Shown piece by piece: positions 3,301 through 56,208 of a stretch of 64,000 nt of DNA. A program made the translations under genes and the position numbers. The first letter of the stretch is position 1; each line of letters opens with the position of its first letter. The notes beneath the pieces were generated by a model. That model was not told the DNA's origin. It did no database searches and was given only the letters and a program-made list of their open reading frames with translations. Source of the stretch: Caballeronia sp. dw_19 (lineage in GTDB: Bacteria > Pseudomonadota > Gammaproteobacteria > Burkholderiales > Burkholderiaceae); contig NZ_JAAVUQ010000002.1 of the NCBI RefSeq assembly GCF_018449515.1, forward strand, positions 124,001-188,000, written 5' to 3'.

Positions 3301-4207
3301 TACCATCGACTCGACGAATTCGAAAGATCACGGTGCGCTGAAGAATGACCGCGCGCCGTGGCACGCCTTCGTGCCGCCCTGGCTGATGAGCTTGCCTGCG
3401 TTCATCCTCTTCGCGGTGCTCGTGCTGACGCCGCTCGCGATGACCGTTGTGCTGACGTTTTATCGCTTCGATCCGGCCAGTGGTCCGATCGCTGCGTTCC
3501 AGTTCGGCAACTATGTTGAAGTGCTGACGGACAGCTACTACCAGACCATTTTTGCGCGGACCTTCGGCATCGCGATCCTGACGACTTTGCTGTGCGTTGC
3601 GATTGGTGCGCCTGAAGCTTATGTGCTGTACCGCATGCGTGACCCGTGGCGCTCGATGTTCCTGCTCGTGATCCTCGCGCCGTTGCTCGTGTCAGTGGTG
3701 GTGCGCGCGTTTGGCTGGAGCATGTTGCTCAACACTGGCGGTATCGTGAATCAGTTCTTCGGCCTCTTCGGGCTGGGTCCGTACAAGCTGGAGTACACCA
3801 CCTTCGCGATAGTGATTGCGCTCGTTCACGTCATGCTGCCGTTCATGGTGATCCCCGTCTGGACCTCGCTGCAGAAGCTTGATCCGCAGGTTGAAAACGC
3901 GGCGCTCTCGCTGATGGCGTCGCCGTCAACCACGTTGCGGCGCATCGTGTTGCCGCAGATCGCGCCGGGCATTTTGTCGGGCAGCTTGATGGTGTTTGGT
4001 TTATCGGCGAGCGCGTTTGCGATTCCCGGCCTGCTCGGCGGCCGTCGGCTGAAAGTAGCGGCCACCGCTGTCTACGATGAATTCCTCGGTTCGCTCAACT
4101 GGCCGCTCGGCGCGACCATCGCGATCCTGTTGCTGATCGCGAACCTCGTGATCATGATCACGTACTACCGGGTTCTGGAGCGTCGTTACTCCAGAAGCCT
4201 CGGTTAA
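3293..4207 (+). CDS. ABC transporter permease, PotB-like
   Basis: A 304-aa inner-membrane permease of the binding-protein-dependent class. A hydrophobic segment near residues 30-55 is followed by about five more. The EAA loop that docks with the ATPase is seen as NAALSLMASPSTTLRR followed by PQIAPG. ATG 3293 overlaps the ATPase gene by 8 bp, and the second permease starts 13 bp after the stop, so ATPase, permease 1 and permease 2 form one operon. It should form the heterodimeric channel with the downstream permease. Confidence 0.9.
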   Translation: MASTIDSTNSKDHGALKNDRAPWHAFVPPWLMSLPAFILFAVLVLTPLAMTVVLTFYRFDPASGPIAAFQFGNYVEVLTDSYYQTIFARTFGIAILTTLLCVAIGAPEAYVLYRMRDPWRSMFLLVILAPLLVSVVVRAFGWSMLLNTGGIVNQFFGLFGLGPYKLEYTTFAIVIALVHVMLPFMVIPVWTSLQKLDPQVENAALSLMASPSTTLRRIVLPQIAPGILSGSLMVFGLSASAFAIPGLLGGRRLKVAATAVYDEFLGSLNWPLGATIAILLLIANLVIMITYYRVLERRYSRSLG

Positions 4208-5401: not shown

Positions 5402-6861
5402 GCGCGGTTATCGATAAAAACAGCATGCGCCGGGTCGTCATTGTCGGTGCGGGACCGGCTGGCGTGCGCGCGGCTGAGACGTTGGTGGCCGCGGGCATTG
5501 TGCCGGTTGTGATCGACGAAGCGCCGCGCGCCGGTGGGCAGATCTATCGGCAGCCGCCAGCGGATGCGGGTTTTGCCCGCAGCAAACGGTCGCTGTATGG
5601 CCTGGAAGCAGGCAAGGCCGACGCGGTGCACTCAACCATGGCTGCCCTGCTTTCAAAGCTCGACTATCGGCCTGACACGCTGGTGTGGGGATGCGGCGCC
5701 GCGCAACTCGATACGCTGCATGACGGACGCCAGCGCACGGTGCCTTATTCGCACTTGTTGATTGCGACCGGCGCGACAGATCGCGTGCTGCCGTTTCCGG
5801 GCTGGACGCTGCCGGGCGTCTACACCCTCGGCGCGGCGCAGATTGCGCTGAAATCGCAGGGCTGCGCGATCGGACGACGCGTGGTGTTCGCGGGAACCGG
5901 GCCGCTGCTTTACCTCGTGGCGTATCAATACGCGAAGGCGGGCGCGCAGGTGGAGGCGGTGCTCGACACCAATCCGTTCTCGCGCCAGTTCGCCGCGACG
6001 CCGCGTTTGTTGCGGCAGCCGTCCACCTTTGCGAAGGGGCTCTATTACGTCGGCTGGCTGGCGGCGCATGGGGTTCGTATCGAACGGGGCGTGACGCTTG
6101 TGCGCGCGACGGGCGATAAAGCGGTGCAGGCCATGACCTATCGCGATGGTGATGGCGAGCAAGAGTTGACCATTCCCTGCGATGCGGTTGGGTTTGGTTA
6201 TGGCCTGCGATCCGAAACGCAGCTTGCGGACCTGGCAGGTTGCCGCTTCCGCTTCGATCCGCTCAATCGCGCGTGGCTGCCGGAGCGCGATGCGGCTGGT
6301 CGCAGTTCGGTGCCGGGTGTTTATCTCGCCGGCGATGGCGCGGGTATCGCGGGCGCGGATGCTGCGGAACTGGCTGGCCGTCGTGCGGCGCTGGCGATGC
6401 TCGAAGACCTTGGGCATCGGGCCGTGAACGCTAACGTTCAGGCTCAGGTCGCGAAGCTGGACCGGCAACTGGCGAACATCGCCGAATTTCGTATTGGGCT
6501 GGAGCAGGCGTTTGCGCTGCCTTCCGATTGCGCGTCGTACTGGCCGGACGACATGACGGTGTGCCGTTGTGAGGAGATCGATGCCGGCGCGCTGCGCCGC
6601 TGCATTCGTGCGGGCGAAGCGAACGAGATCAATCGGCTGAAGGCGCTGACGCGCGTGGGCATGGGCCGTTGCCAAGGGCGCATGTGCGGCGCGGCGGCGG
6701 CGGAATTGCTGAGCGCGGAGACGGGCAGACCTATCGCTGATGCCGGACGTTTGCGCGGACAGGCTCCGATCAAACCCGTGCCTTTATCAATAGCGATGAT
6801 GGACGAAGCTCCCGAAGCGAATCATCTGGCCGCCATTGCGGAGCACGCCCGCGATGAATGA
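5398..6861 (+). CDS. FAD/NAD-binding subunit with BFD-like 2Fe-2S domain (HcnB/OoxA-type)
   Basis: A 487-aa flavoprotein. An N-terminal dinucleotide fold has the GAGPAG motif at residues 17-22, and a second nucleotide-binding fold (FAGTGPL) lies near residue 165. The C-terminal bacterioferredoxin-like cluster domain has Cys389 and Cys391 (CRC), then Cys425 and Cys430 (CQGRMC). This layout matches the α/B subunit of HcnABC-like amine dehydrogenases, which passes electrons from the substrate-oxidising subunit to the respiratory chain. GTG 5398 is preferred because GCAGGAG lies upstream and the 4-bp GTGA overlap with the preceding stop suggests coupling. The frame is open to 5335. Confidence 0.85.
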   Translation: MSAVIDKNSMRRVVIVGAGPAGVRAAETLVAAGIVPVVIDEAPRAGGQIYRQPPADAGFARSKRSLYGLEAGKADAVHSTMAALLSKLDYRPDTLVWGCGAAQLDTLHDGRQRTVPYSHLLIATGATDRVLPFPGWTLPGVYTLGAAQIALKSQGCAIGRRVVFAGTGPLLYLVAYQYAKAGAQVEAVLDTNPFSRQFAATPRLLRQPSTFAKGLYYVGWLAAHGVRIERGVTLVRATGDKAVQAMTYRDGDGEQELTIPCDAVGFGYGLRSETQLADLAGCRFRFDPLNRAWLPERDAAGRSSVPGVYLAGDGAGIAGADAAELAGRRAALAMLEDLGHRAVNANVQAQVAKLDRQLANIAEFRIGLEQAFALPSDCASYWPDDMTVCRCEEIDAGALRRCIRAGEANEINRLKALTRVGMGRCQGRMCGAAAAELLSAETGRPIADAGRLRGQAPIKPVPLSIAMMDEAPEANHLAAIAEHARDE

Positions 6862-7981
6862 GACTTTGCGGTTCGACGTGCTGGTGGTGGGCGGGGGTTT
6901 GGTGGGGTCATCGACGGCCTTGATGCTTGCAAAGCGCGGGCTGAAGGTGGGGCTGTTCGAGCGCCGTTATTGCGGCGCGCAGGCGAGCGGTGTGAACTAC
7001 GGTGGCGTACGCCGTCAGGGGCGGCCGGCCGAACAATTGCCGTTGGCGGTGCGTGCGCGATCGATCTGGGACCGGCTGCCGGAACTCGTGGGCACGGATG
7101 GAGAGTTCGTTGTTTCGGGGCATTTGCGGTTGGCTCGCAGCGAAGCGGATCTTGCGGCGCTTGAAGCGTACGCGCAGCTTGCCAACCCGTTTGGTCTCGA
7201 TTTGCAGTTGATGAGCGGACCTGCGTTCAGGCGTCGTTACCCGTGGCTTGGGGCCGCCGCGGTGGGTGGTTCATTGTGTCCTCGTGACGGTCATGCGAAT
7301 CCGCGCGTGGTGTCGCCTGCGTTCGCGCGCGCGGCGCGTGCAGCCGGTGCTGACGTCCGTGAGCAGACTGCGGTGACGAACATCGTGCGTGATGGGGAAC
7401 GGTTTGTTGTCGAGGCGCGGCATGACTCGGGTGCTGTGATCGAGGTTCAGAGTGACTGGCTGGTCAATGCGGCTGGCGCTTGGGGCAACACGGTGGCTGG
7501 GTACTTTGGCGAGACCATTCCGATGGAGCCGATCTATCCGAACATGTGGGTGACTGAGCCGCTGCCGTATTTCATCGATCACAATCTTGGGGTGTATGGC
7601 GGTGGCATTTATGCTCGTCAGGTGGCGCGCGGCAATGTGGTGATTGGCGGGGGGCGTGGGTTGGGGGATGGCGAGTATGCGCAGCCGCTCACGGAGACTA
7701 CGCGGACGGTCATGAGGGCTGCGTGCGCGCTTTTGCCGGCGTTGAAAGATGCGTTGCTGTTGCGGACCTGGACAGGGGTTGAAGGCCGTACGCCGGATGA
7801 CAATCCGGTGATTGGTTTTAGCCGGACTACGCCAAGATTGCTGCATGCGTTTGGATTTTCGGGTGGGGGGTTTTTGCTTGCGCCGGGGGTTGGGGAGGTG
7901 CTTTCCGATCTCATTGTTGAGGGGGGATCGGGGACGCCGATCGAGGCGTTTTCTATTGGGCGGTTTGATCGGGGGGGATAG
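6854..7981 (+). CDS. FAD-dependent amino acid oxidase/dehydrogenase subunit (HcnC/DadA-like)
   Basis: A 375-aa protein of the DAO/glycine-oxidase superfamily. The FAD-binding GGGLVG motif is at residues 13-18, a second FAD contact region reads WLVNAAGAWG, and the C-terminal region contains GRTPDDNPVIG. It is the likely catalytic subunit that oxidises a secondary or primary amine. With the two preceding genes it would form an HcnABC-type heterotrimer. The order next to amaB suggests pipecolate or a related cyclic amino acid. ATG 6854 overlaps the previous gene by 8 bp. The last 200 bp are strikingly G-rich on the coding strand and run into repeat element A a few bases after the stop. Confidence 0.83.
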   Translation: MNETLRFDVLVVGGGLVGSSTALMLAKRGLKVGLFERRYCGAQASGVNYGGVRRQGRPAEQLPLAVRARSIWDRLPELVGTDGEFVVSGHLRLARSEADLAALEAYAQLANPFGLDLQLMSGPAFRRRYPWLGAAAVGGSLCPRDGHANPRVVSPAFARAARAAGADVREQTAVTNIVRDGERFVVEARHDSGAVIEVQSDWLVNAAGAWGNTVAGYFGETIPMEPIYPNMWVTEPLPYFIDHNLGVYGGGIYARQVARGNVVIGGGRGLGDGEYAQPLTETTRTVMRAACALLPALKDALLLRTWTGVEGRTPDDNPVIGFSRTTPRLLHAFGFSGGGFLLAPGVGEVLSDLIVEGGSGTPIEAFSIGRFDRGG

Positions 7982-9122
7982 GTTTTTGGGGGGAGTGGTC
8001 AGGGATCAATGCCGGGTTGGTCGGTTTTGGGGTTAGCGGTCAGGGTTAATGCTGGGTTGGTGGTTTCGGTGTTAGTGGTCAGGGGTCTATGCCGGGGTGG
8101 TGCTTTCGGCCTTAGTGGTCTGCGAGAGTCGGATATTCTCTTTATCACTATTAGCCACTGTGCGTGGCGGCACGTCATTTCTTTGTCCAAAGCGACAAAG
8201 AAACGAAGCAAAGAAAGCGCTTTAACCGCTCTACCCTAAGTGTCCACAGCGTGCAGTTTTGATTCATAGGTGCCCCAAAAGCACGGTGCTCGCCAGAGCT
8301 ACCGATGTTTGAACCCCTCCTTCTCGCGAATCCTGACACGAACACGCTTCGCCCCGTACGCTCTCGGGCAAGCACCATTGCCAAGGGACCACCACGGCCT
8401 CACGCGTCTTTTCGGTTTCGTTTTTTGGTGCGTTGGCTACGTGGTCTGAACAGTTGCTTCCGCCGGCAACGGCATCTCGCGTATTGGTACTTCCGTGTTG
8501 GTACTTCATCTCTTGGCGGGTTGACTGCGTGGACCATACGCTTATTTTCGCCGACTACGGGCTCACGCATTTTCGCGACCTCGTTTCCAGCAGGGTTGGC
8601 GACGTGGTTCGAGGCGCGCACATATTTGGAGGGTGGTCGTCCGCGGATAGCGCGGGGTGCTCTTTGGGCAGGTTCAGTCACTGGTGGCGAAGCGTGTGGG
8701 TATCGGTGTTCGGAGAAGGAGGGGTTCACACATCCTCCGCTCTGGCGAGCACCGTGCTTTTGGGGCACCTATGAATGAAAACTGCACGCTGTGGACACTT
8801 AGGGTAGCGTGGTTGAAAGCGTTTTCTTTGCTTCGTTTCTTTGTCGCTTTGGACAAAGAAATGACGTGCCGCCACGCACAGTGGCTAATAGTGATAAAGA
8901 GAAAATCCGACTCACGCAGACCGCTAACACTGAAAGCAGCAACCCGGCACCAACCCCGACCGCTAACCCCGGAACCGACCACCCCAGCACCAACCCCGAC
9001 CGCTAACCCCAGAACCGACCACCCCGGCACTGACCCCGAGCACCCCGGCATAGCCCCCGAGCACCCTAGAATCCAACCCCGTCCCTCGAACAGAATATTT
9101 TCAAGAAGTGCGAACGAAATCA
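7982..9122. repeat. Composite inverted-repeat element, copy A (non-coding)
   Basis: About 1.1 kb of non-coding DNA between the HcnC-like gene and the binding-protein gene. The inverted arms are 8121-8299 and 8739-8920, nearly the same as those of copies B and C. Each arm holds a perfect 10-bp stem, TTTCTTTGTC-CAAAGC-GACAAAGAAA (8178-8203 on the left). Outside the arms are degenerate arrays with a period near 40 bp, G-rich on the left (about 7988-8120) and C-rich on the right (about 8921-9065). Inside the arms the two ends differ. The left end (sequence near 8325-8385) matches the right end of B and C, so copy A is inverted relative to them. The centre, about 8400-8620, is poorly conserved. 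No transposase is present, and reading frames across it are artefacts of the repeat. The outer limits are approximate. Confidence 0.85.
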
Positions 9123-9169
9123 CCCTCGAAACCACCCCTCAAACCACCCTGTCTAAAGGAGATCAATAA

Positions 9170-10222
9170 ATGAAAGCGTTTCATACAGTAGCCAGCGTGA
9201 GCATTACCGCCTTGTGCGCAGCAGCCCTCTCCACGTCAGCGCAAGCGGATACCAAAACCATCTACATCGGCATGAACGGCGGCCCGATGGAAAAGGCCTA
9301 CACCAGCGAGGTCCTACCCGAATTCGAAAAGGCCAACAACGTAAAAGTGGTAGTCGTACCCGGCACGTCCTCTGACATTCTCGCGAAACTGCTGGCGAAC
9401 AAAGCCAAACCACAAATCCACGTAGTGTTCCTCGACGATGGCGTGATGGCTCGCGCAGTCAGCATGGGCGTCTGCCAAAAACTCGACGATAGCCCCGAAC
9501 TCAAGCAACTCTACCCATTCGCGCGCATGAAGGACGACATCGGCGCGGGCGTACAACTCGGCATGACCGGCATCGCCTACAACACGAAACTCTTCACGGC
9601 AAACGGCTGGGCGCCCCCCACATCATGGCTCGATTTCGCCGACCCGAAATACAAGGACAAAGTGGTGTTCCAGTCCGCGTCGAGCAGCACGTTCGGCCTG
9701 CACGGTTTCCTGATGATCAACCGCCTCGAAGGCGGTTCGGAGAAGAACGTCGAACCCGGCTTCACGAAATGGCAAAGCACCGTGGGCAGGAACGTGATCG
9801 AGTACATCCCGAACTCGGCAAAAATCTCTGAGATGGTCCAGACCGGTCAAGCCGGCCTGTTCCCGCTCACGCCGACCGCAGTGGGTGACCTGCAGGCGAA
9901 GGGCATTCCCGTTGCCTATGTGAACCCGAAGGAAGGGCCGGTGCTGTTGCTCGTCGATGAATGCGTCGTTGCAAACAACCCCGATCCGGTACTCGCGCAA
10001 AAGCTTGCGGCATTCATGATCTCGGCGTCGGCACAAAGCAAGGCAGCAAGCGCCGGCCGCCAGATCCCGACGAACCGCCAGGCGAAGATGCCCGATTCGA
10101 TGCAGCAGCAACTGGGTAACCTCGACGACCTGGTGAAGAAGGTCAACGTGGTGGACTGGGATGTGATCAACGCAAATCGCCCGCAATGGGACGCGCGCTG
10201 GAATCGTCAGGTCGAACGGTAA
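9170..10222 (+). CDS. Periplasmic substrate-binding protein, PotD-like
   Basis: A 350-aa exported binding protein of the spermidine/putrescine/iron class. A Sec signal peptide covers residues 1-26, with cleavage expected after AQA. The mature start (DTKTIYIGMNGGPME) and the VPGTSSDILAKL stretch are typical. A strong site (AAAGGAGA) precedes ATG 9170. It is the probable receptor for the ATPase and permeases at 2.2-5.0 kb, because no other orphan binding protein of this class lies nearby. It is separated from them by the oxidase genes and repeat A and may have its own promoter in 9065-9160. A strong terminator follows. Confidence 0.87.
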   Translation: MKAFHTVASVSITALCAAALSTSAQADTKTIYIGMNGGPMEKAYTSEVLPEFEKANNVKVVVVPGTSSDILAKLLANKAKPQIHVVFLDDGVMARAVSMGVCQKLDDSPELKQLYPFARMKDDIGAGVQLGMTGIAYNTKLFTANGWAPPTSWLDFADPKYKDKVVFQSASSSTFGLHGFLMINRLEGGSEKNVEPGFTKWQSTVGRNVIEYIPNSAKISEMVQTGQAGLFPLTPTAVGDLQAKGIPVAYVNPKEGPVLLLVDECVVANNPDPVLAQKLAAFMISASAQSKAASAGRQIPTNRQAKMPDSMQQQLGNLDDLVKKVNVVDWDVINANRPQWDARWNRQVER

Positions 10223-43400: not shown

Positions 43401-44336
43401 ATGTCGCGCATTCCCGTCTCTCGGCTTGCCGCCGCAGTCGCCTTTGCCTGCGTGTTGCTCGGCACGGCGAGCGCGCCCGGTGTTGCCCAGGCCGCAGCCG
43501 AACTCAAGCCCGCGTCGGCGAGCACGAACGTATCCGTCGGTCCTCAGTACGATACGACTCACGTGTATGTGTCCAACGAAGATATCGATGCATTCGTCAA
43601 CAGCTTCCTGGCGACCTTCGGCGGCAAGGCATCACCGCGTGCGGTCTTCACCGTGACGCCGACGCCAAGCAAGACCGCGTCGCAATACGTGCAGACCCCC
43701 GTCGGCATGTTGTCCGTGTTTGCGTTCCAGACGCCGATCCCCTATCCGTTCGGCGACGAGCGTACCGGCTATCTCGTGACCGATATGGACCAGGCCGTGC
43801 ACGCGGCCCGTGCCGCGGGTGCGGATGTGACCGTCGAGCCATTCGACGACCCGATCGGCAAGGACGCGCTGATCCGCTGGCCCGGCGGCTTGAACATGCA
43901 GTTGTACTGGCATACGAAAGCGCCGTCGTACGGGCCGCTTGAATCGGTGCCGGACAATCGCGTGTACATGTCCCGTTTTGCCGTCGATGGTTTCGTGCGC
44001 CGGTTCGTGCGGTTCTCGCAAGGCAAGGTGGTCTCCGACGACCGGCATGCGGACGCCGGTGTCATCGGTCGTCCGGGCGAGACCATGCGCTGCATCCGGA
44101 TTGAATCGGGCTTCGGCAAGATGGTGGTGTTCGTCACCGACGGCAAGCTCCCGTATCCGTTCGGGCGCGAGACGACCGGCTACCAGGTGACCGACCTCGC
44201 GGCGACGCTGGTGAAGGCCGAGGCGGCGGGCGCCAAGGTGTTGTTTGCGCCGTACCAGACCGGCAAGGGCAAGACGTCGATTGTCGAATTCCCGGGGGGG
44301 TATATCGCCGAGATCCACGACACAGCCGCTCAATGA
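43401..44336 (+). CDS. Exported VOC (glyoxalase-like) protein
   Basis: A 311-aa protein with a Sec signal peptide (about residues 1-33, ending VAQAAAE) and two vicinal-oxygen-chelate-like modules. The first covers about residues 50-175 (THVYVSNEDIDAFVNSF), the second about 190-305 (ending VEFPGGYIAEIHD). Periplasmic VOC proteins are uncommon; most are cytosolic. GAAACAGGAG precedes ATG 43401, and the stop overlaps the porin gene by 4 bp. It could be a binding or ring-cleaving protein for the compound taken up by the porin; this is inference. Confidence 0.78.
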   Translation: MSRIPVSRLAAAVAFACVLLGTASAPGVAQAAAELKPASASTNVSVGPQYDTTHVYVSNEDIDAFVNSFLATFGGKASPRAVFTVTPTPSKTASQYVQTPVGMLSVFAFQTPIPYPFGDERTGYLVTDMDQAVHAARAAGADVTVEPFDDPIGKDALIRWPGGLNMQLYWHTKAPSYGPLESVPDNRVYMSRFAVDGFVRRFVRFSQGKVVSDDRHADAGVIGRPGETMRCIRIESGFGKMVVFVTDGKLPYPFGRETTGYQVTDLAATLVKAEAAGAKVLFAPYQTGKGKTSIVEFPGGYIAEIHDTAAQ

Positions 44337-45814
44337 TCCAGACGCGACGTTCGCGGTGTTCGGGCCGTTCGCGGCGATTAATGGCGCTTTCCGGCTTCAC
44401 GCTGGCGGTGAGTACGAGCGTCGCGGCAATGGACGCTCGCGCTGCATCGGATGCCGGCGATGCACAGCCGCCTGCGTCTGCGCCAGTGACGACTTGCGAC
44501 GTTAAACGCCCCGCCGTCTTGTTCAATCGATGGCAAGAGGACTGGTCGGTGCTCGCGAATCCGTGCGTGCCGCGCGAGCCGCTGGATGGCCTCAAGTACA
44601 TGCCGCTGGTTGGCGATCCGGCGTCGTACCTGTCGCTCGGTGCGAACCTGCGCGAGCGGCTGGAGGTGAACAACGCCGCGTTGTTCGGGGTGGGTGGGAA
44701 CCACGGCGATACGTACCTGCTGCAACGCGCCGAAGTACACGCCGACATTCACCTCGGCGACCACTTGCAGATCTTCACGCAGATCGAAGATGCTCAGCCG
44801 TACGGCAAGGATTCGGTGACACCGGTCGACAAGAACCCGCTTGATCTTGAGCAGGCGTTCATCACCTACGTCGGAGCGCTGGGTGGCGGCACGTTCAAGT
44901 TCAGGCTCGGGCGTCAGGAGATGGCGTTCGACTTGCAGCGTTTCATTTCGGTCCGTGACGGCCCGAACGTCCGGCAGGCATTCGATGGGCTCTGGACCGA
45001 CTGGGAGATCCAGCGCTGGCGTTTCATTGCCTATGCCACGCAGCCGGTGCAGAACCGGGACGTCAGCAACTTCGATGACGTCTCGAACCGGCACCTGACC
45101 TTCAGCGGCGTGCGTTTCGAGCGTCAGGGCGTGGGACCGGGCGACCTGTCGGGATACTACTCGCGCTATAACCGCGACAACGCGCACTTTATTGATGCGA
45201 CGGGCGATGAGCATCGTGATGTGTTCGACCTGCGTTACACCGGCAAGGCTGGACGGGTGGACTGGGATGTCGAGACCATGCTGCAAAGCGGGCACGTCGG
45301 CAACGACACCATTGGTGCGTGGGCGCTCGGGTCGCTGGCCGGTTATACCTTCAGCGATGTCCCCGGGACGCCGCGTGCGGGCATTCAGATCGATGCGGCG
45401 TCCGGTGACCGTCATCCGGGTGATGGCCGGATTGGGACGTTCAATCCGTTGTTCCCGAATGGATACTATTTCACGCTTGCCGGTTATACCGGTTACAGCA
45501 ATCTGATTCACGTCAAGCCGAGTATCACGTTGAAGCCGGCTAGCAATTTGTCTTTGCTGGCAGCTGTCGGATTTCAGTGGCGCGCGACCACGGCCGATGC
45601 TGTGTATGCGCAAGGTTCCGTGCCGGTGCCGGGGACGGCTGGTCATGGGAGCTTGTGGACGGGCATGTATGTGCAGTTGCGCGCGGACTGGACTATTGCG
45701 GCGAATCTGATCGGCTCGGTCGAGGCGGTGCATTTTCAGGTCGGCGATGCGATCCGCGAGGTGGGTGGCAGTAATGCCGATTATATTGGGGTGGAGATTA
45801 AATATGGGTGGTAG
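44333..45814 (+). CDS. Alginate-export-type outer-membrane β-barrel protein
   Basis: A 493-aa protein with an N-terminal signal region (residues 1-38), a plug-like start (SYLSLGANLRERLEV) and repeated amphipathic strands to a C-terminal aromatic (KYGW). This fits the alginate-export (AlgE-like) porin family. Proteobacterial members next to catabolic genes usually act as substrate-specific outer-membrane channels, not in alginate export. It is the last gene of the operon that starts at 39658. Repeat element B begins about 20 bp after its stop. Confidence 0.83.
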   Translation: MIQTRRSRCSGRSRRLMALSGFTLAVSTSVAAMDARAASDAGDAQPPASAPVTTCDVKRPAVLFNRWQEDWSVLANPCVPREPLDGLKYMPLVGDPASYLSLGANLRERLEVNNAALFGVGGNHGDTYLLQRAEVHADIHLGDHLQIFTQIEDAQPYGKDSVTPVDKNPLDLEQAFITYVGALGGGTFKFRLGRQEMAFDLQRFISVRDGPNVRQAFDGLWTDWEIQRWRFIAYATQPVQNRDVSNFDDVSNRHLTFSGVRFERQGVGPGDLSGYYSRYNRDNAHFIDATGDEHRDVFDLRYTGKAGRVDWDVETMLQSGHVGNDTIGAWALGSLAGYTFSDVPGTPRAGIQIDAASGDRHPGDGRIGTFNPLFPNGYYFTLAGYTGYSNLIHVKPSITLKPASNLSLLAAVGFQWRATTADAVYAQGSVPVPGTAGHGSLWTGMYVQLRADWTIAANLIGSVEAVHFQVGDAIREVGGSNADYIGVEIKYGW

Positions 45815-45831
45815 GGGTGGGGGATTGCGAG

Positions 45832-47020
45832 GGTTTTGGGTTAGTGGTTGGTCAGTGCTGGGGTGGTCGGTGCTGGGGTTAGCGGTCGGTCGGGTTCATT
45901 GCCGGGTTGGTCGGTTCTGGGGTTAGTGGTCGGGGTTAGTGCTGGGTTGGTGCTTTCGGCCGTGGTGGTCTGCGAGAGTCGGATTTTCTCTTTATCACTA
46001 TTAGCCACTGTGCGTGGCGGCACGTCATTTCTTTGTCCAAAGCGACAAAGAAACGAAGCAAAGAAAGCGCTTTCAAACACGCTACCCTAAGTGTCCACAG
46101 CGTGCAGTTTTGATTCATAGGTGCCCCAAAAGCACGGTGCTCGCCAGAGCGGAGGATGTTTGAAACCCTCCTTCTCCGAACACGGATACCCACACGCTTC
46201 GCCACCAGTGATTGAACCTGCCCAAGGTTCACCCCGCGCTATCCGCGGACGACCTCCCGCCGAATTTGTACGCATTACGAACCTCGTAACCAACCTTCCT
46301 GGAAACGAGGCTGCGAAGATACATGAGGCCTTACCCACGAAAATAACTGCGCCGACCAAGCAACTGACCCACGAAGAACCGCAGAAGCAAATACGCGTGA
46401 GGCCTGCCGGTCCCATAGCAATTCGTGCTTGCGCGAGAGCACGGGTGGCGAAGCGTGTTCATGTATGTATGCACGACGAACCTCGTAGCCAACCCGCCAG
46501 GAAACGAGGCCGCGAAGATATCCTGGGCCTTAGCCCACGAAAATAAGGGCGCTGACCAAGCAGCTAACCTACGAAGAACTGGAGAAGCAGATACACGTGA
46601 GGCCGTGTGGGTTCCTTAGCAATAGTGCTTGCCCGAGAGCGTACGGGGCGAAGCGTGTTCGTGTCAGGATTCGCGAGAAGGAGGGGTTCACACATCCGTG
46701 GCTCTGGCGAGCACCGTGCTTTTGGGGCACCTATGAATAGAAACTGCACGCTGTGGACACTTAGGGTAGTGTGTTTTAAAAGCGTTTTCTTTGCTTCGTT
46801 TCTTTGTCGCTTTGGACAAAGAAATGACGTGCCGCCACGCACAGTGGCTAATAGTGATAAAGAGAAAATCCGACTCTCGCAGACCACTAACGCTGAAAGC
46901 AGCAACCCGGCATAGACCCTGACCGCTAACCCCAGAACCGACCACCCCGGCATCAACCCCAACCGCTAACCCCAAGAACCTGGCCCCCCAAAACCCACCC
47001 CCAATCGCGAGCGAAAACCA
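45832..47020. repeat. Composite inverted-repeat element, copy B (non-coding)
   Basis: About 1.2 kb between convergent genes (porin, + strand; LysR, - strand). The arms are 45971-46150 and 46701-46883 in inverted orientation. G-rich and C-rich outer arrays with a period near 40 bp lie at about 45832-45970 and 46884-46990. The left end carries the type II inner sequence (ACGGATACCCACACGCTTCG near 46183), the right end type I (CGGGGCGAAGCGTGTTCGTG near 46646). It shares CGCGAGCGAAAACCA at its right limit (47006-47020) with copy C. It is longer than A and C because its centre holds a 199-bp tandem duplication. No protein gene is supported. Confidence 0.85.
46278..46670. repeat. 199-bp tandem duplication inside element B
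   Basis: Two diverged copies start at 46278 and 46477 with a period of 199 bp. Both begin CGAACCTCGTA, share GGAAACGAGGC and the CCCACGAAAATAA region, and end in a GAGAGC.ACGG.GCGAAGCGTGTTC stretch. Copies A and C have only one such segment. Confidence 0.75.
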
Positions 47021-47026
47021 ATCCCG

Positions 47027-47935
47027 TCATATGCGCGCTATGAATCGATCGATCAGATCAGGCTGATCCAATTGCTCGACCCACCAGCGCAGCGCTCGCC
47101 CGGTTTCATCGTCGCGCCATGCAAGATAACAATCGGTGACTTCTCGCATGCCCGTCACGCGCTTAGGCACGAGCTTACCCTCGGCGATCGGTTTCGCAGC
47201 AAGACACTCCGGGATGGTACCCACCGCCAAACCCTCGCACTGTGCGGCGAGCTTGGCGCTAAGCGTGGGCAGCGCAATGCATTCCTGCGTGGTCCCGGTC
47301 GCGACCGAACGCGGCCTCAACTCCCGAGAGGTATCGCTGATCACAGCGCCGCGATAACGCATGACGGTATCTATTCCAAGCGGCTCAGGCAGGTCCGCAA
47401 GCGGGTGATCAGGCGCGACCACGAACACATGCCGCAGCGACCCAACCGGGCGTGCCACGAGATGCGGAAGATGCGGCGGCTCGCCGGCCGCGCCGACCAC
47501 AAGATCCGCGCGCCGCGTAACCAGCGCGTCCCACGTGCCACCGAGCACTTCTCTCGACAGACGCAGCCGCGTATCCATTTTCAGGTCATAGAACGCGTGG
47601 ACATAGGGCCAGAAAGCATCGAGCGGAAGGATCTCGTCGATACAGATTCGCAGCTCCGCCTCCCAGCCTTCCTGAATGCGTTGCGCCCGCTGTTCCAGTT
47701 GTTCGGCTGCGAGCAACAGCCGCCTGCCATCCTCGACCACGACACGTCCCGCATGCGTGAGCCTCGCGCGCCTGCCAGTGCGATCGAACAACGCAACGTC
47801 GAGATCGCTTTCGAGCTTCTGGACGAGATAACTCAGGGACGAGGGCACCCGGTGCAGCAATTCGGCCGCTTCAGCAAACGTGCCGGTGCGATCGATTGCG
47901 TCCAGCGCTTCGAGGACTTCGAATGACAGCTTCAT
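47027..47935 (-). CDS. LysR-type transcriptional regulator
   Basis: A 302-aa regulator. The helix-turn-helix lies at residues 1-60 (MKLSFEVLEALDAIDRTGTF, then AAELLHRVPSSLSYLVQ), followed by an effector domain with the usual WPYVHAFYD stretch. ATG 47935 is chosen because GGAAAG lies upstream and the family starts here; the frame continues to 47977. Its upstream neighbour on the same strand is the flavin monooxygenase, 545 bp away, so it may be a separate unit. Repeat B lies directly behind its stop. Confidence 0.88.
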   Translation of the reverse strand: MKLSFEVLEALDAIDRTGTFAEAAELLHRVPSSLSYLVQKLESDLDVALFDRTGRRARLTHAGRVVVEDGRRLLLAAEQLEQRAQRIQEGWEAELRICIDEILPLDAFWPYVHAFYDLKMDTRLRLSREVLGGTWDALVTRRADLVVGAAGEPPHLPHLVARPVGSLRHVFVVAPDHPLADLPEPLGIDTVMRYRGAVISDTSRELRPRSVATGTTQECIALPTLSAKLAAQCEGLAVGTIPECLAAKPIAEGKLVPKRVTGMREVTDCYLAWRDDETGRALRWWVEQLDQPDLIDRFIARI

Positions 47936-48480
47936 TTCAGCTTTCCATTTTGTAATCTGACCGAGGATGCGCTTCACGCGTTGTCTGGCGTGTCTGGTGT
48001 GTCGATGTGAACCGATCGTGTATCGACTGTGTATGTAACCGGAATGGGGCCTCTTGTGCGGTGCGTTTCAGATCAATTCAGGCCGCGTCCGTGCCCGAAG
48101 CGCGTTATTTCGCGAACACGGTATGCCGAAGCCGATAGTCGCGCCAGCGCCAGGCGTGTGTTCGAAGTGGGTGAGTCGTATTATCGCGGCTGTGTCCAGT
48201 TCGTCAATAAAGTCCACGAACCGGCTGGACGTTGAAGCGCCCGGAAATCGGCCAGAAAGAAACGCATGCAGACGTCACAGGGGACGTTGCCACGCAGACC
48301 GCTTGAACTGCGGATAAGGGGCCGCAGTTCAAGCGCGTGGCATTGGAGGCTATCTATGGAGGACGGTGTGGACCGTGTCGTGAAGCGAGTCTGACGTCGG
48401 CAGCAGTGGTCCGCATTGAGGGTGGAAGAATGCTCGTTGATGAACGAGATCCTTGTTAGTGGTAAAGAGAACGCCGGCTG
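47936..48480. other. 545-bp intergenic region with a long hairpin
   Basis: No supported gene is seen here; the short open frames lack ribosome-binding sites and recognisable sequence. The region holds the upstream area of the LysR gene and, further right, a strong inverted repeat at 48289-48341. Its length and structure leave room for a small RNA, but nothing shows one directly. Confidence 0.5.
48289..48341. terminator. Long hairpin downstream of the flavin monooxygenase gene
   Basis: A 14-bp perfect stem (CGCTTGAACTGCGG 48300-48313 with its complement 48322-48335) closes an 8-base loop. After a 5-base bulge on one side, an outer 6-bp stem (GCCACG / CGTGGC) extends it. No T-run follows on either strand. 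It lies about 140 bp after the monooxygenase stop (- strand) and may act as a terminator or a stabilising structure. Confidence 0.5.
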
Positions 48481-51595: not shown

Positions 51596-53076
51596 CAGCC
51601 GGCCTGCCCGTGATAGTCGCGAGGTCGGTGTCGAAACGCTTCGGTCCGACTGTCGCGCTCGATCGATTCGATCTCTCAGTTGCTGCGGGCGAGATCGTGG
51701 CGCTAATGGGCGCCAACGGGGCGGGCAAGTCCACGATCGTCAAGATACTAAGCGGTGTTTATCCCGGCGATGGCGGGTCTCTTGAACTGCATGGCAAGCC
51801 GTACGCGCCGGCCTCACCGCAAGAAGCGAAGGCGCTGGGTGTAGCAACAATGCATCAGTCGATCGCTGATACGGTCGTGCCCACCCTCTCGGTCGCGGAC
51901 AACCTCCTGCTTGATCGTTTCAACAATGCGGCCACGCCATGGTTTATCAGGCCCGCGGCGTGGCTTGAAGAGGCCCGTTCCATTGCTGAGTTGGTTGGCC
52001 TTGACGTTGACCTGCGTGCGCCGCTGTTCACGCTGCCGCTTGCAACGAGGCAGCTCGTCACGCTGGCCCGGGCGCTGGCCGTCAAGCCTGCAGTCCTCAT
52101 ACTCGATGAACCGACGGCAAGCCTCTCGGCCACCGAAGCCGAACGTCTTTTTACCGCACTCGACATGTTGCGCAAGCGCGGTGTCGCGATGCTGCTGGTT
52201 TCGCATCGACTCGGTGATCTCAAGCGAATGGCTGACAGGGTTGTGATTGTCCGCGACGGCCGGCTGGTAGCCAATCTGAAAACGCCGATCGATTTCGACG
52301 ATGCCACTGAAACGATGATTGGCCGCGCATTGCCGAAGACGCGTGAACGAAAAGCGGTGCGTTCGACGGCGAATCAGGGGCTTCAGGTCCGGGGCTTGAA
52401 ATTGTTCCCAAGCGCCGATAGCCCGGCACTCGACTTCGACGCTGCTCGTGGCGAGATCGTCGCGTTTGCGGGTCCCTTGGGAGGTGGCAAGTCGCGGTTA
52501 GCCCGGACGTTGTTTGGTATCGAGCGAGTGGTTGCCGGCACGATGACACTCGATGGCCAGCCGTGGCAGCCGCGCTCTGCCGCCGAGGCTATCCGCCGTG
52601 GCGTCTTCCTTGTAGGCGAGGACCGCTGGAGTTCGTCGCTCTTTCCGGACAGCGTGCCCTTCGCCTCGATTGAAGGCACATTGAGTTTTCCGTTTCTGTC
52701 GAACTGGTTCAGGGGCGGGTGGATCAACAGGTCGCGCGAACGTCGCGAGGCTGCGTCCGCCATCGAGCGTTTCTCCATTCGATGCAACGGCCCGGCAGAT
52801 CGGGTGGTCAACCTCTCCGGCGGCAATCAGCAAAAGGTGGTACTTGCGCGCTCGCATGCAGAACCCGCCCGCATGCTGTTGCTTGACGAGCCGTTTCAGG
52901 GTGTCGACGCCGGCGCTCGCGCGGACATTGCCGATGTGTTGCGAGCGAATGCGGCTGGGCGGGTGACGCTGGTGTTCGTCAGCGCTATCGAGGAGGCGTT
53001 CGAGGTCGCAGACCGTGTGCTGCGCTTCGATCGTTCGATCATCGGAACAAACATTGAAGATCTTGCCGGAGCCTGA
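51592..53076 (+). CDS. Sugar-type ABC transporter ATP-binding protein, two NBDs (RbsA-like)
   Basis: A 494-aa protein with tandem ATPase domains. Domain 1 has Walker A GANGAGKST (40-48) and Walker B LILDEPTAS, but the usual LSxGQ signature is replaced by LPLATRQLV. Domain 2 has GPLGGGKSR near 293 and an intact LSGGNQQKV signature, followed by LLLDEPFQG. One weak and one strong site is a known trait of this family. GTG 51592 overlaps the MFS stop by 4 bp, and the permease gene begins 3 bp after its stop. Confidence 0.88.
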   Translation: MTAGLPVIVARSVSKRFGPTVALDRFDLSVAAGEIVALMGANGAGKSTIVKILSGVYPGDGGSLELHGKPYAPASPQEAKALGVATMHQSIADTVVPTLSVADNLLLDRFNNAATPWFIRPAAWLEEARSIAELVGLDVDLRAPLFTLPLATRQLVTLARALAVKPAVLILDEPTASLSATEAERLFTALDMLRKRGVAMLLVSHRLGDLKRMADRVVIVRDGRLVANLKTPIDFDDATETMIGRALPKTRERKAVRSTANQGLQVRGLKLFPSADSPALDFDAARGEIVAFAGPLGGGKSRLARTLFGIERVVAGTMTLDGQPWQPRSAAEAIRRGVFLVGEDRWSSSLFPDSVPFASIEGTLSFPFLSNWFRGGWINRSRERREAASAIERFSIRCNGPADRVVNLSGGNQQKVVLARSHAEPARMLLLDEPFQGVDAGARADIADVLRANAAGRVTLVFVSAIEEAFEVADRVLRFDRSIIGTNIEDLAGA

Positions 53077-53079
53077 CGC

Positions 53080-54120
53080 ATGAAACCTGGCGCTTCTACC
53101 GAAGTAAGCTCCGTTGTTCGAACGGAGTTCAGACATACCAGCATCAGGACGAAGCTGGAACGCAGCGGCATCTTGTTGCTGCTCGTCGCGATGGGTGCGG
53201 TATTTACATGGCGTGAGCCGGCATTCTTGAGCGTGGACAATCTGTTCAGCATCTTGCAGGCTGCATCGATTGTCGCGCTTCTGGCCGTGGGGGTCAGCAT
53301 TACACTGGCGGTGGGCGGCTTCGATTTGTCGGTCGGCAGCACGGCTGCAACGGCGCAGATGGCCGCGAGCTACGTGCTCGTTGTGTGGCATGGCAATGCG
53401 CTCGCAGCGGTCGCGGCGTGCCTTGTGTTGGGTGTCGGTGCGGGACTTTTCAATGGCTTGCTGATCACGCGTCTTCGCGTCCCGGACCAGCTCGCGACGC
53501 TCGGAACCTTGTTCCTGCTAGCGGGACTGCAGTTGATTCCGACGGGTGGGCGCTCGCTCGCGACTGGCACGATCTTGCCGGATGGCACGGAGGCCACGGG
53601 ATCGTTTCCGGCGGCCTTCCTGGCATTGGGCCGGGCTCGCTGGCTGGATGTCGTGCCGGTGCCGGTCATCGTGCTCGCGGTGGTGACGCTGGTCGCGGTG
53701 CTCGTGATGGAATTTACACGATGGGGGCGTGTGCTCTATGCGACCGGCGGGAACGAGACGGCTGCGCGGCTGGCGGGTGCGCCGACGGCGCGTTATCGTG
53801 TGGCGGCGTATGTCGCGTCGGGTGTGATTGCTTCGCTGGGCGGCGCGCTGATTGCCGCACGCGTTGGGCGGGGTGATGTTGGCGCCGGTAATTCGCTGCT
53901 TCTGGATGCGGTTGCCGCCGCGCTTATTGGTTATGCGGTGTGGGGGGCTAAGCGTCCTAATGTATTGGGTTCGGCCGTCGGTGCGGTGTTTGTTGGCGTG
54001 TTGCTCAACGGATTGACCATGCTCAATGCGCCTTATTACATGCAGGATTTTATAAAGGGCGCGTTGCTCGTTGGGGCGCTTGCTTTTACGTTTAGCATTG
54101 GTCGGCGAGGGGGGAGGTGA
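53080..54120 (+). CDS. Sugar-type ABC transporter permease, RbsC-like
   Basis: A 346-aa inner-membrane permease with about 8-10 membrane segments. The RbsC hallmark region reads GGFDLSVGSTAATAQ, and a later one RLAGAPTARYRVAAYVASG. It lies 3 bp behind its ATPase gene. No periplasmic receptor gene of this class is found in the window, which is unusual, and element C begins directly after the stop. It could be an orphan pair using a distant receptor, or the receptor gene may have been lost. The substrate is unknown. Confidence 0.88.
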   Translation: MKPGASTEVSSVVRTEFRHTSIRTKLERSGILLLLVAMGAVFTWREPAFLSVDNLFSILQAASIVALLAVGVSITLAVGGFDLSVGSTAATAQMAASYVLVVWHGNALAAVAACLVLGVGAGLFNGLLITRLRVPDQLATLGTLFLLAGLQLIPTGGRSLATGTILPDGTEATGSFPAAFLALGRARWLDVVPVPVIVLAVVTLVAVLVMEFTRWGRVLYATGGNETAARLAGAPTARYRVAAYVASGVIASLGGALIAARVGRGDVGAGNSLLLDAVAAALIGYAVWGAKRPNVLGSAVGAVFVGVLLNGLTMLNAPYYMQDFIKGALLVGALAFTFSIGRRGGR

Positions 54121-54121
54121 A

Positions 54122-55244
54122 TTGGTTTTTTTGCGTGGAGGAATTGTTGATTAGGAATGCTGGGGTGTTGGGTTAGTGGTCGGGGGATATGCCGGGTTGG
54201 TCGGTTCTGGGGTTAGTGGTCGGGGTTGATGCCGGGTTGCTGCTTTCGGCCGTGGTGGTCTGCGAGAGTCGGATATTCTCTTTATCACTATTAGCCACTG
54301 TGCGTGGCGGCACGTCATTTCTTTGTCCAAAGCGACAAAGAAACGAAGCAAAGAAAGCGCTTTAACCGCTCTACCCTAAGTGTCCACAGCGTGCAGTTTT
54401 GATTCATAGGTGCCCCAAAAGCACGGTGCTCGCCAGAGCGGAGGATGTGTGAACCCCTCCTTCTCCGAACACGGATACCCACACGCTTCGCCACCAGTGA
54501 TTGAACCTGCCCAAGGAGCACCCCGCGCTATCCGCGGACAACCGAGCTCCGAATTTTTACGCGCCTCGAACCATGTCGCCAACCCTGCTGGAAACGAGGC
54601 CGCAAAGATGCGGACGGCCTTAACCGACGAAAATAGCTGTACAGAACGCGCAGCCGATTCACAAAAACTGAAGCAGTAAACACAAACACGCATCAAGCTG
54701 TGACCTATGAATACGGTCGCACAGACCAAGTAGCTAACCTGTCAAAAAACCGCAGCCGTAAATATCTGTAAGGCCGTGCGGGTTCATTGGCAATTGTGCT
54801 TGCCCGAGAGCGTACGGGGCGAAGCGTGTTCGTGTCAGGATTCGCGAGAAGGAGGGGTTCACACATCCGTGGCTCTGGCGAGCACCGTGCTTTTGGGGCA
54901 CCTATGAATAGAAACTGCACGCTGTGGACACTTAGGGTAGTGTGGTTGAAAGCGCTTTCTTTGCTTCGTTTCTTTGTCGCTTTGGACAAAGAAATGACGT
55001 GCCGCCACGCACAGTGGCTAACAGTGATCAAGAGAAAATCCGACTCTCGCAGACCACTAAGGCCGAAAGCAGCAACCCAGCATTGACCCAGAATCGCTAA
55101 CCCCAGAACCGATCACCCCGGCATCAACCCCGACCGCTAACCCCAGAACCGACCACCCCGGCATAGACCCCGCCCGCCCCAAACCTAGCAACTCACCACC
55201 GCCCCAACCCCAAAAAACCGTCCACCGGCGCGAGCGAAAACCAC
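54122..55244. repeat. Composite inverted-repeat element, copy C (non-coding)
   Basis: About 1.1 kb between convergent genes (RbsC-like, + strand; aldo/keto reductase, - strand). The arms are 54261-54439 and 54872-55053, inverted to each other and almost the same as those of A and B. Outer arrays lie at about 54150-54260 (G-rich) and 55054-55190 (C-rich, two clear 40-bp units). Its orientation is as in B: type II inner sequence at the left end, type I at the right. The limits may be marked by TTGGTTTT at 54122 and CGAAAACCA at 55235-55243, which are complementary. No protein gene is supported inside it. Confidence 0.85.
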
Positions 55245-55248
55245 ATCC

Positions 55249-56208
55249 TCAAATCACCGCCGCCGCAATGCGCTGTCTCATCAATTGATCCGGATAACTA
55301 CCGAATCCCGCACGCACATTGTCCCACATGTACTCCGGCCGCCCGGTGCCGGGAATCACGCAGGTCACCGCCGGATGCGCGAGCACAAACTTGAGCAGCA
55401 ATTGCGCCCAGGTCGCGCACCCGATCTCCTTGCTCCACTCGGGCACCGGCTGTCCCTTCAGTTTGCCCAGCAAACCGCCGCCGCCGAACGGCTGATTCAC
55501 GATCACGCCAATCCCGCGTTCCCTCGCAAGCGGCAGCAAGCGTTCTTCAGCGGCGCGGTCATCAGCAGCGTAGTTGATCTGGACAAAGTCGAGTGTCTCC
55601 GAGCGCATCACGGCTTCCACGTCGGCAAACGCGCCCGACGTGTAATGCGTAACGCCGAGATAGCGAATCCGGCCCTGCGCTTTCCATTCACGCAGCGTAG
55701 CCAACTGCGTGCGCCAGTCGAGCAGATTGTGAACCTGCATCAGATCGATGCGCGGTTGCTGAAGACGCCGCATCGACTCTTCCATTTGTGCGATACCCGC
55801 TTCACGGCCTTCGGTCCATACCTTGGTCGCGACAAATGCACTGCCATGCCCGCCGATGCGCGTCAGCACCGCCCCGGCAACTGCCTCCGAAGACCCATAC
55901 ATCGGCGATGAATCGATGACTGAGCCGCCGTTGTCGAACAGGATGCGCAGCACCTCGGCGAGCGGGGCTTGCGCTTGTAGATTGTCGCCGACATCGAAGG
56001 TGCGCCAGGTACCGCAACCGACCACCGGCAGCGCTTCGCCCGTGGACGGGATAGGGCGCGTGTTCATGTGCGGCAGCGGCACGCCGGTGGCGGGCGGCGT
56101 TCGCGCGAAGCTCGCAGGCACGCATAAAGGCAGGCTCAAAGGCAGCAGCGCGCTGCCGGCGGCAAGGAGGAGGTGCCGACGGCGGGCGTCGGCGGAAGTG
56201 GGGCGCAT
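55249..56208 (-). CDS. Exported aldo/keto reductase with Tat signal
   Basis: A 319-aa protein. The N-terminus has a twin-arginine-type signal (ARRRHLLLAAGSALL, cleavage expected after SFA near residue 35). The (β/α)8 aldo/keto reductase domain follows, with the catalytic set visible as IDSSPMY (Asp, Tyr), TKVW (Lys) and MQVHN (His). NADPH enzymes exported in folded form through Tat are uncommon, so a periplasmic role is notable. It stands alone on the - strand; element C touches its 3' end. Confidence 0.85.
   Translation of the reverse strand: MRPTSADARRRHLLLAAGSALLPLSLPLCVPASFARTPPATGVPLPHMNTRPIPSTGEALPVVGCGTWRTFDVGDNLQAQAPLAEVLRILFDNGGSVIDSSPMYGSSEAVAGAVLTRIGGHGSAFVATKVWTEGREAGIAQMEESMRRLQQPRIDLMQVHNLLDWRTQLATLREWKAQGRIRYLGVTHYTSGAFADVEAVMRSETLDFVQINYAADDRAAEERLLPLARERGIGVIVNQPFGGGGLLGKLKGQPVPEWSKEIGCATWAQLLLKFVLAHPAVTCVIPGTGRPEYMWDNVRAGFGSYPDQLMRQRIAAAVI

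Follow-up and report, generated by a model that had tools for sequence, protein, structure and literature searches.

A high-copy palindromic repeat of Caballeronia flanked by a two-sided, strand-asymmetric mutation footprint: a candidate natural chromosome-break site

A 1.1-kb intergenic repeat of Caballeronia carries a strand-asymmetric mutational footprint in the genes on both of its sides. Across 54 two-armed copies in the source genome, the strand that runs inwards, to the element, carries an excess of G and T over 1-2 kb on either side, whatever the direction of the genes. On balance, we consider that the element is an interrupted palindrome that probably acts as a chronic chromosome-break site, breakage being read here from sequence. 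The footprint is the most informative feature of the element and goes beyond what an earlier, sequence-only reading of the same DNA had described. The window, that is, the whole stretch of DNA analysed, comprises 64 kb (G000:C67:124001-188000) of the 9.06-Mb, 153-contig genome of Caballeronia sp. dw_19 (G000).

The sequence-only reading had placed the same 1.1-kb element at three places in the window, each with two inverted 180-bp arms nearly identical between copies, and blastn with the arm at 8121-8299 bore out both points (95-100% identity). Copy 1 spans 7982-9119 (delimited by sequence and blastn), copy 2 45832-47020 and copy 3 54122-55244, none with an assigned strand. The query arm is 100% identical to the left arm of copy 3 (54261-54439, + strand) and 97% identical to that of copy 2 (45971-46150, + strand), and it matches the inverted partners at 8739-8918, 54872-55051 and 46701-46881 (all on the - strand) at 95-96%, with E values from 2e-79 to 3e-91. 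From the outside inwards, the layout consists of an end motif, TTTTCGYTCGCRC, a G/T-rich array of ~40-bp units, the 180-bp arm and then a centre in which blocks X and Y enclose a variable middle, followed by the mirror image. In copy 1, the left outer array of G/T-rich ~40-bp units (7984-8120, +; repeat family D2, spacing 40 and 40) is followed by the left arm (8121-8299, +), the centre with block Y on the left and block X on the right (8300-8738), the inverted right arm (8739-8918, -; blastn 96.1%), a right outer array that is C/A-rich on the + strand (8919-9107, -; repeat families D3 and D4, spacing 39-40) and a right end motif of type B, TTTCGTTCGCAC read inwards (9108-9119, -); on the left, the end of this copy has no recognisable motif of the kind. 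Mechanical repeat finding recovered inverted repeats of 222 and 105 nt in copy 1 and direct repeats ~40 bp apart outside its arms, as expected from the earlier description of outer arrays with a period near 40 bp. The right end of copy 3 carries a type A motif, TTTTCGCTCGCGCCGGTGGACGG read inwards (55218-55240, -). The motif TTTTCGYTCGCRC lies just past a stop codon in many (uncounted) of the 70 ends listed, and some ends are without it.

Copy 1 lies between genes for a FAD-dependent oxidoreductase (6836-7981, +) and a solute-binding protein (9170-10222, +). The other two copies lie between convergent genes. Copy 2 has an alginate-export-domain gene (44333-45814, +) on its left and one for a LysR-family regulator (47027-47977, -) on its right; copy 3 is flanked by a transport permease gene (53080-54120, +) and, on the other side, by one for an aldo/keto reductase (55249-56208, -). 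Gene names are by Pfam. At 7930-7981, the end of the oxidoreductase frame beside copy 1 differs from that in six element-less relatives, and in Burkholderia sp. S171 (G302) the frame at this site seems to continue into the outer array.

Using a 29-bp arm core with at most two mismatches tolerated, we found 175 arm cores in the dw_19 genome (85 forward and 90 reverse; 0 with a reversed control), and the earlier expectation that three copies in one window imply a high genome-wide number thus held. At least 10 contig ends fall inside element sequence, so the real copy number is probably higher than 175. Searching other Burkholderiaceae with the arm, as had been proposed, gave a match in 11 of 398 genomes of the family, dw_19 included, and all 11 are among the 58 genomes of the genus Caballeronia. 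S171 holds 78 cores, C. sordidicola S170 (G361) 56, Caballeronia sp. SBC1 (G250) 53, and the remaining bearers, among them C. sordidicola PAMC 26633 (G381) and C. udeis LMG 27134 (G337), hold 2 to 11. A diverged sister arm type is present with 40-67 cores each in G203, G047, G312 and G009 and with a single core in G342; the core search did not detect it in the remaining 53 Caballeronia genomes. At five sister-family loci of G047 (L374-L378), arm cores are doubled in tandem: two forward cores stand 70-91 bp from each other, and four of these loci have two reverse cores as well.

For quantitative analysis we took 63 dw_19 sites (60 loci plus the three in the window), a part of all copies drawn from 100 of the 175 arms. 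Fifty-five of them are two-armed, and 54 were used once L085, an arm of which is split by an insertion, had been set aside. This insertion is ~1.3 kb long (L085:2777-4898) and possibly an IS; the coordinates of the two arm parts overlap by 4 bp, which would fit a target duplication. The eight single-arm loci were kept out of all averages; seven were looked at separately, and the eighth, L104, lies at a contig end. In the 54 copies, the arms are 347-630 bp apart (410-450 bp in 44 of them), and the left and right arms of a copy are 95% identical on average. The centre had been called variable; its middle is indeed less conserved, but it is bounded by the two conserved blocks X and Y, which stand in the order XY in 26 copies, YX in 24 and otherwise in 4. 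Frequent flipping of the centre was considered and rejected: orientation is approximately random across copies, yet it agrees in five of six comparisons at shared sites. No predicted gene overlaps the arm-to-arm part of any of the 54 copies. Consistent with the claims that the element is non-coding and lacks a transposase, the four ORFs over the centres of copies 1 and 2 have no Pfam match at E 0.01, and no transposase domain among them; Rfam gave 0 matches above the gathering score in the whole 64-kb window. The description "unnamed" thus holds as far as Rfam, Pfam and the open-licence literature searched, the extent of the comparison. At L073, the outer array to the left of the arm at 3578 contains, no more than 200 bp from it, at least six near-identical 18-bp units, TGGGTTAGTGGTCGGTTC, which suggests a recent tandem expansion.

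The footprint is strongest close to the arms. Averaged over the 54 copies, the inward-strand GC skew is 0.17 at 200-400 bp outside the arm and has dropped to approximately 0 near 2 kb, with the TA skew behaving likewise and G+C remaining nearly constant. The maximum lies 75-125 bp outside the arm, and the skew fades inside the first 50 bp of the arm. G+T content was higher near the element than far from it in 94 of 105 flanks (p=7e-23; 3 of the 108 flanks had no far sequence), and the signal was missing in 11. Each of the three elements in the window coincides with one of its three strongest skew flips, the top one peaking at 8250 in copy 1. There, the left footprint extends over approximately 6600-7981 on the + strand (GC skew 0.278 and AT skew -0.279 at 7001-8000) and the right one over approximately 9120-10200 on the - strand (-0.133 and 0.239 at 9001-10000). 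Copy 2, with the third peak at 46250, has a left footprint at approximately 44800-45831 (+; 0.219 and -0.217 at 45001-46000) and a weak right one at 47021-48000 (-; -0.083 and 0.054 at 47001-48000, with an inward-strand G+T of 0.52). Copy 3 has footprints at approximately 53000-54121 on the left (+; 0.173 and -0.294 at 53001-54000), a flank that was also polarised, and at approximately 55245-56200 on the right (-; -0.201 and 0.178 at 55001-56000).

The same signature was found in relatives. In 1.6 Mb of SBC1, the top three skew flips are elements, and an element-like match was found at 9 of 25 skew peaks (25 of 30 peaks being examined) compared with 8 of 200 random places. The nine two-armed elements of this SBC1 stretch rank in the top 7.6% of positions by skew flip and three of them in the top 0.1%; the strongest non-element peak is a repetitive coding region. 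A strong skew flip at L220:300-1100 has nothing to do with the element: it falls within a long stretch of coding sequence with GGTCACGGCAACGACGGC-type repeats. The skew recurs in eight other genomes in 35 of 38 measurable flanks (10 of 48 flanks had no near or far sequence, and two of the genomes contributed one locus each), and in the sister family in 37 of 40 flanks from three genomes. The seven single-arm loci retain some excess (G+T 0.541 near and 0.518 far), implying either that this is a relic or that the palindrome is not needed.

Gene context bears on a reading in which the element is a transcription end or mRNA-processing unit, such as a large BIME-like bidirectional terminator, and the skew arises from transcription-associated mutation of the flanking coding strands. 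According to a home-made codon-usage gene finder, which was also used to define element-free gene ends, 23 of the 54 copies lie between convergent genes, compared with 28 of 294 background gene pairs; this over-representation hints at the 3'-end processing unit suggested earlier, but 31 copies are non-convergent, 25 tandem and 6 divergent (background, 229 and 37). Element-free convergent gene ends in SBC1 are themselves mildly G/T-rich (0.547 in 180 convergent pairs; 0.520 in 300 sampled tandem pairs), as such a reading would have it, and the nine SBC1 elements exceed them, with 0.62-0.64 in their first 600 bp. At third codon positions of genes pointing to the element, G+T decreases from 0.70 at 200-400 bp to 0.50 at 3.2 kb. 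Genes transcribed away from it show the same inward-strand excess beyond 200 bp (0.625 at 200-400 bp and 0.48 at 3.2 kb), and only 0.545 within the first 200 bp (112 positions). Since, in addition, the excess of new G/T changes at the two polarised sites described below is confined to element-carrying lineages, we regard a terminator origin of the skew as very unlikely.

To follow the direction of base changes, we compared dw_19 with SBC1, in which 37 of the 54 sites had no map position in the 1.6 Mb of contig C3 and 12 were counted as arm-less (among them L077, which has a 1203-bp gap of other DNA). At these 12 sites, differences within 1 kb lean to G/T in dw_19 (985 versus 542), and at 2.2-3.1 kb they are closer to even (685 versus 601). 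Changes were polarised at the sites of copies 1 and 3 (sites 1 and 3) using G371 and G342 as outgroup, on a one-gene tree with support of 96 for the ingroup and 100 for the outgroup pair and with the ingroup unresolved; site 3 was polarised in its left gene only, and S170 has no usable left gene at site 1. Element bearers have accumulated 163 changes to G/T and 58 to C/A, compared with 95 and 141 in non-bearers (Fisher p=4e-13, a value that is indicative, as two sites were polarised and bearers are not independent if they share ancestry). Summed over both sites, the bearers show 86 C>T against 25 T>C, 48 C>G against 4 G>C and 24 A>G against 28 G>A; the corresponding counts in non-bearers are 46 and 44, 31 and 19, and 16 and 74. 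The spectrum of the bearers is thus cytosine-specific and strand-specific, its excess consisting of C>T and C>G. Such changes are expected from uracil and abasic sites in single-stranded DNA. The unpolarised counts between dw_19 and SBC1 also contain an A>G excess (154 versus 79), which may come from G>A on the SBC1 side. A deaminase-like sequence context was looked for and rejected: within 1 kb at the arm-less SBC1 sites, C>T affected 96 of 715 cytosines after A, 71 of 932 after C, 139 of 1850 after G and 77 of 1054 after T, that is, C after A was changed more often and no TC or CC preference was seen. A comparison of SBC1 with SBC2, meant as a test of recent mutation, yielded 1 mismatch in 30 kb, too few to inform.

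The polarised changes also weigh on the idea that the element inserts where strand composition already flips and causes nothing. Convergent gene ends do flip weakly anyway, and element-less relatives are somewhat G/T-rich at site 1 (left flank, 0.576-0.610), where the bearer S171 (0.603 and 0.542) is not above the non-bearer SBC1 (0.610 and 0.543). At site 3, bearers are above non-bearers (0.605-0.632 in the three former, 0.568-0.577 in the five latter). Yet derived changes at the very same two sites run in different directions, mostly to G/T in bearers and mostly to C/A in non-bearers, and non-bearers drift back, as expected once the element is lost. It is therefore very unlikely that insertion preference accounts for the footprint.

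Copies of the family evolve in concert within each genome, in the manner that gene conversion would give. Sampled arms are 97% identical on average within dw_19 (28 arms from 14 elements) and 95% within S170 (13 arms), but 85% identical between the two, even though both have elements at sites 1 and 3. When copies were ranked by similarity across species, in six comparisons of five regions each (30 region comparisons), the same-site copy ranked 31.5 in the median, out of 54 copies, and reached the top five once. Outer arrays deviate in part, with same-site ranks of 2, 6, 6 and 6 in 4 of 12 comparisons. Outer end types, moreover, are paired within the element. Both ends could be typed in 25 elements, of which 10 are AA, 13 BB and 2 mixed; in the remaining 29 of the 54, at least one end escaped typing. 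Taken together, the better ranks of the arrays and the paired end types suggest that homogenisation is weaker outwards, and it seems to fade towards the outer ends of the element.

Relatives were also inspected for empty sites, a check suggested by the sequence-only reading, and arm-less sites were indeed found, some with remnants. The site 1 element is present in dw_19, S171 and S170 and absent in PAMC 26633, G366, SBC1, C. udeis LMG 27134, G371 and G342; in G009, G047 and G312 the site holds a relative with only one arm or with same-direction arm pieces. All six element-less versions of site 1 retain a GTGCGAAC-like end motif, and the SBC1 counterpart of L102 reads as the scar of an internal deletion with the outer arrays remaining. 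These remnants indicate that losses occur and that such sites represent loss rather than gain; no clean gain was recognised at the element-less sites of relatives. Likewise, reading by eye at 11 arm-less SBC1 sites aligned to dw_19 gave no clear target-site duplication, at most a candidate TAAG at L088, with ends eroded or remnants present at the 11 sites.

These observations can be set against an explanation in which a homing or transposition nuclease encoded elsewhere cuts the element or its ends, and breaks and conversions follow from this cutting rather than from palindrome fragility. The inverted outer ends TTTTCGYTCGCRC, of a single type in nearly all doubly typed elements, would suit a nuclease target, as would the intergenic placement and the difference in sites between species. 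Such a history fits poorly with the 11 arm-less sites, which show no clear target-site duplication and some of which, by their remnants, are losses, and we consider a dedicated nuclease rather unlikely. By the same evidence, the earlier suggestion of a non-autonomous mobile element stands in part: element-free sites exist in relatives, and terminal inverted repeats, a hallmark of MITEs, are of the same type at both ends in 23 of 25 doubly typed elements, but a clean target-site duplication was not recognised. The element is possibly of this kind.

The break model that we favour starts from hairpins, which the inverted arms would form at replication or when the DNA is single-stranded and which a structure-specific nuclease would cut; in E. 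coli, the enzyme of this kind is SbcCD. Both break ends would then be resected 5' to 3' by RecBCD-type enzymes, leaving 3' single-stranded tails, of the + strand to the left of the element and of the - strand to its right. The footprint affects the same strands; it is two-sided and has the polarity of 3' tails, as a natural break hotspot should. Cytosines in the tails would suffer damage and give C>T through replication over uracil and C>G through synthesis past abasic sites. Recombinational repair, partly from other copies, would homogenise arms, arrays and centres genome-wide, and internal deletion would now and then remove an element. The model leaves the insertion and spread of the element unexplained. 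As for the machinery, RecB was found in dw_19 at 824 bits, over its cut-off, and an SbcC-like protein is encoded by a 1150-codon open frame that scores below the curated family cut-off, as in 13 of 14 control genomes. The E. coli Chi sequence occurs in the outer arrays twice in inward and never in outward orientation, although this consensus may not be the genus's own Chi. The E. coli palindrome discussed below is interrupted by 24 bp, far less than the distance between the arms here, and hairpin formation may be inefficient as a result. The residual excess at single-arm loci, the low value in the first 200 bp of genes pointing away, the 11 flanks lacking the signal, the A>G excess of the unpolarised counts and the more frequent C>T after A likewise speak against the model. 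Owing to the composition of site 1 and the wider range of arm spacing, we give slightly less weight to breakage than we otherwise would.

The two-sidedness of the footprint also helps to judge whether the element is a replication-fork barrier, at which forks stall and the exposed lagging-strand template mutates without regular double-strand breaks. The lagging template of an approaching fork is the inward-running strand, so the polarity fits, and G-rich arrays and hairpins could conceivably stall forks. However, each site is normally replicated from one side, and yet inward G+T exceeds 0.52 on both sides of 31 of the 54 copies, on one side of 20 and on neither side of 3, with a left-right correlation of 0.05 (30% of far windows likewise exceed 0.52 G+T, the baseline for this count). 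A fork barrier is thus unlikely.

Chronic breakage invites a broader proposal, which we put forward tentatively and at somewhat less than even chances: that these elements may form a genome-wide set of hotspots for recombination, in which a palindromic repeat, either selfish or tolerated, would break regularly, drive its own gene conversion, keep its copies alike and exert C>T and C>G pressure over 1-2 kb. If so, they would constitute a natural bacterial parallel to meiotic break hotspots, and many natural loci in a dozen genomes would record the long-term mutational outcome of bacterial double-strand breaks, opening resection length, strand polarity and the base changes of repair to study without engineered nucleases. 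An intergenic repeat would then steer the mutation and base composition of adjoining genes, and compositional flips could reveal former break sites that are now lost.

Among known systems, the repeat itself belongs to the large interspersed palindromic repeats, a known kind. What appears to be new is the mutation footprint, two-sided and lineage-specific, at a repeat that occurs naturally and in many copies in a bacterium: none of the open-licence papers listed in the searches deals, judged by title and abstract start, with this element or with a bacterial footprint of this kind. Like BIMEs and REPs, the element is intergenic, palindromic and high in copy number. REPs, however, measure 20-40 bp according to PMC3733652, whereas here 180-bp arms sit in a 1.1-kb unit; with arms of this size and spacing in place of alternating 20-40-bp palindromes, the earlier suggestion of a very large BIME-like structure was not sustained. 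With MITEs it shares a non-coding, intergenic nature and inverted ends without a transposase, and it differs from them in its nested array-arm-centre layout and in the lack of a clean target-site duplication recognised at the 11 arm-less sites.

The closest experimental system is an interrupted palindrome in E. coli, for which PMC3315005 reports DNA degradation and hairpin formation, with SbcCD and RecA protecting against the resulting rearrangement. Both have inverted arms around a spacer; breakage is reported there, whereas our case is built on genome sequence. According to the same account, that palindrome, on which SbcCD, RecBCD and RecA act, was engineered at one site, measures 246 bp and is interrupted by 24 bp, whereas the Caballeronia element is natural and high in copy number, with 347-630 bp between its arms and an evolutionary footprint. 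Mutation hotspots at engineered E. coli breaks are cited in PMC3809393. In yeast, inverted repeats raise mutation on both sides, as far as 8 kb away (PMC3681665), and the fragile repeats described there resemble the present element in raising mutation on both sides over kilobases; that work concerns reporter genes in a eukaryote and a polymerase zeta-dependent process reaching up to 8 kb, and ours a natural bacterial repeat with a reach of ~1-2 kb. For human meiotic breaks, PMC7615360 states the same strand geometry, with strand-asymmetric C>G and A>G changes that span more than 10 kb and are ascribed to break-induced replication. The strand-asymmetric C>G changes are common to the human hotspots and the Caballeronia element. 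The human breaks, by contrast, are programmed by SPO11/PRDM9, their asymmetry extends over more than 10 kb and includes A>G, and they involve no repeat element, whereas the bacterial footprint surrounds a palindromic repeat and spans 1-2 kb.
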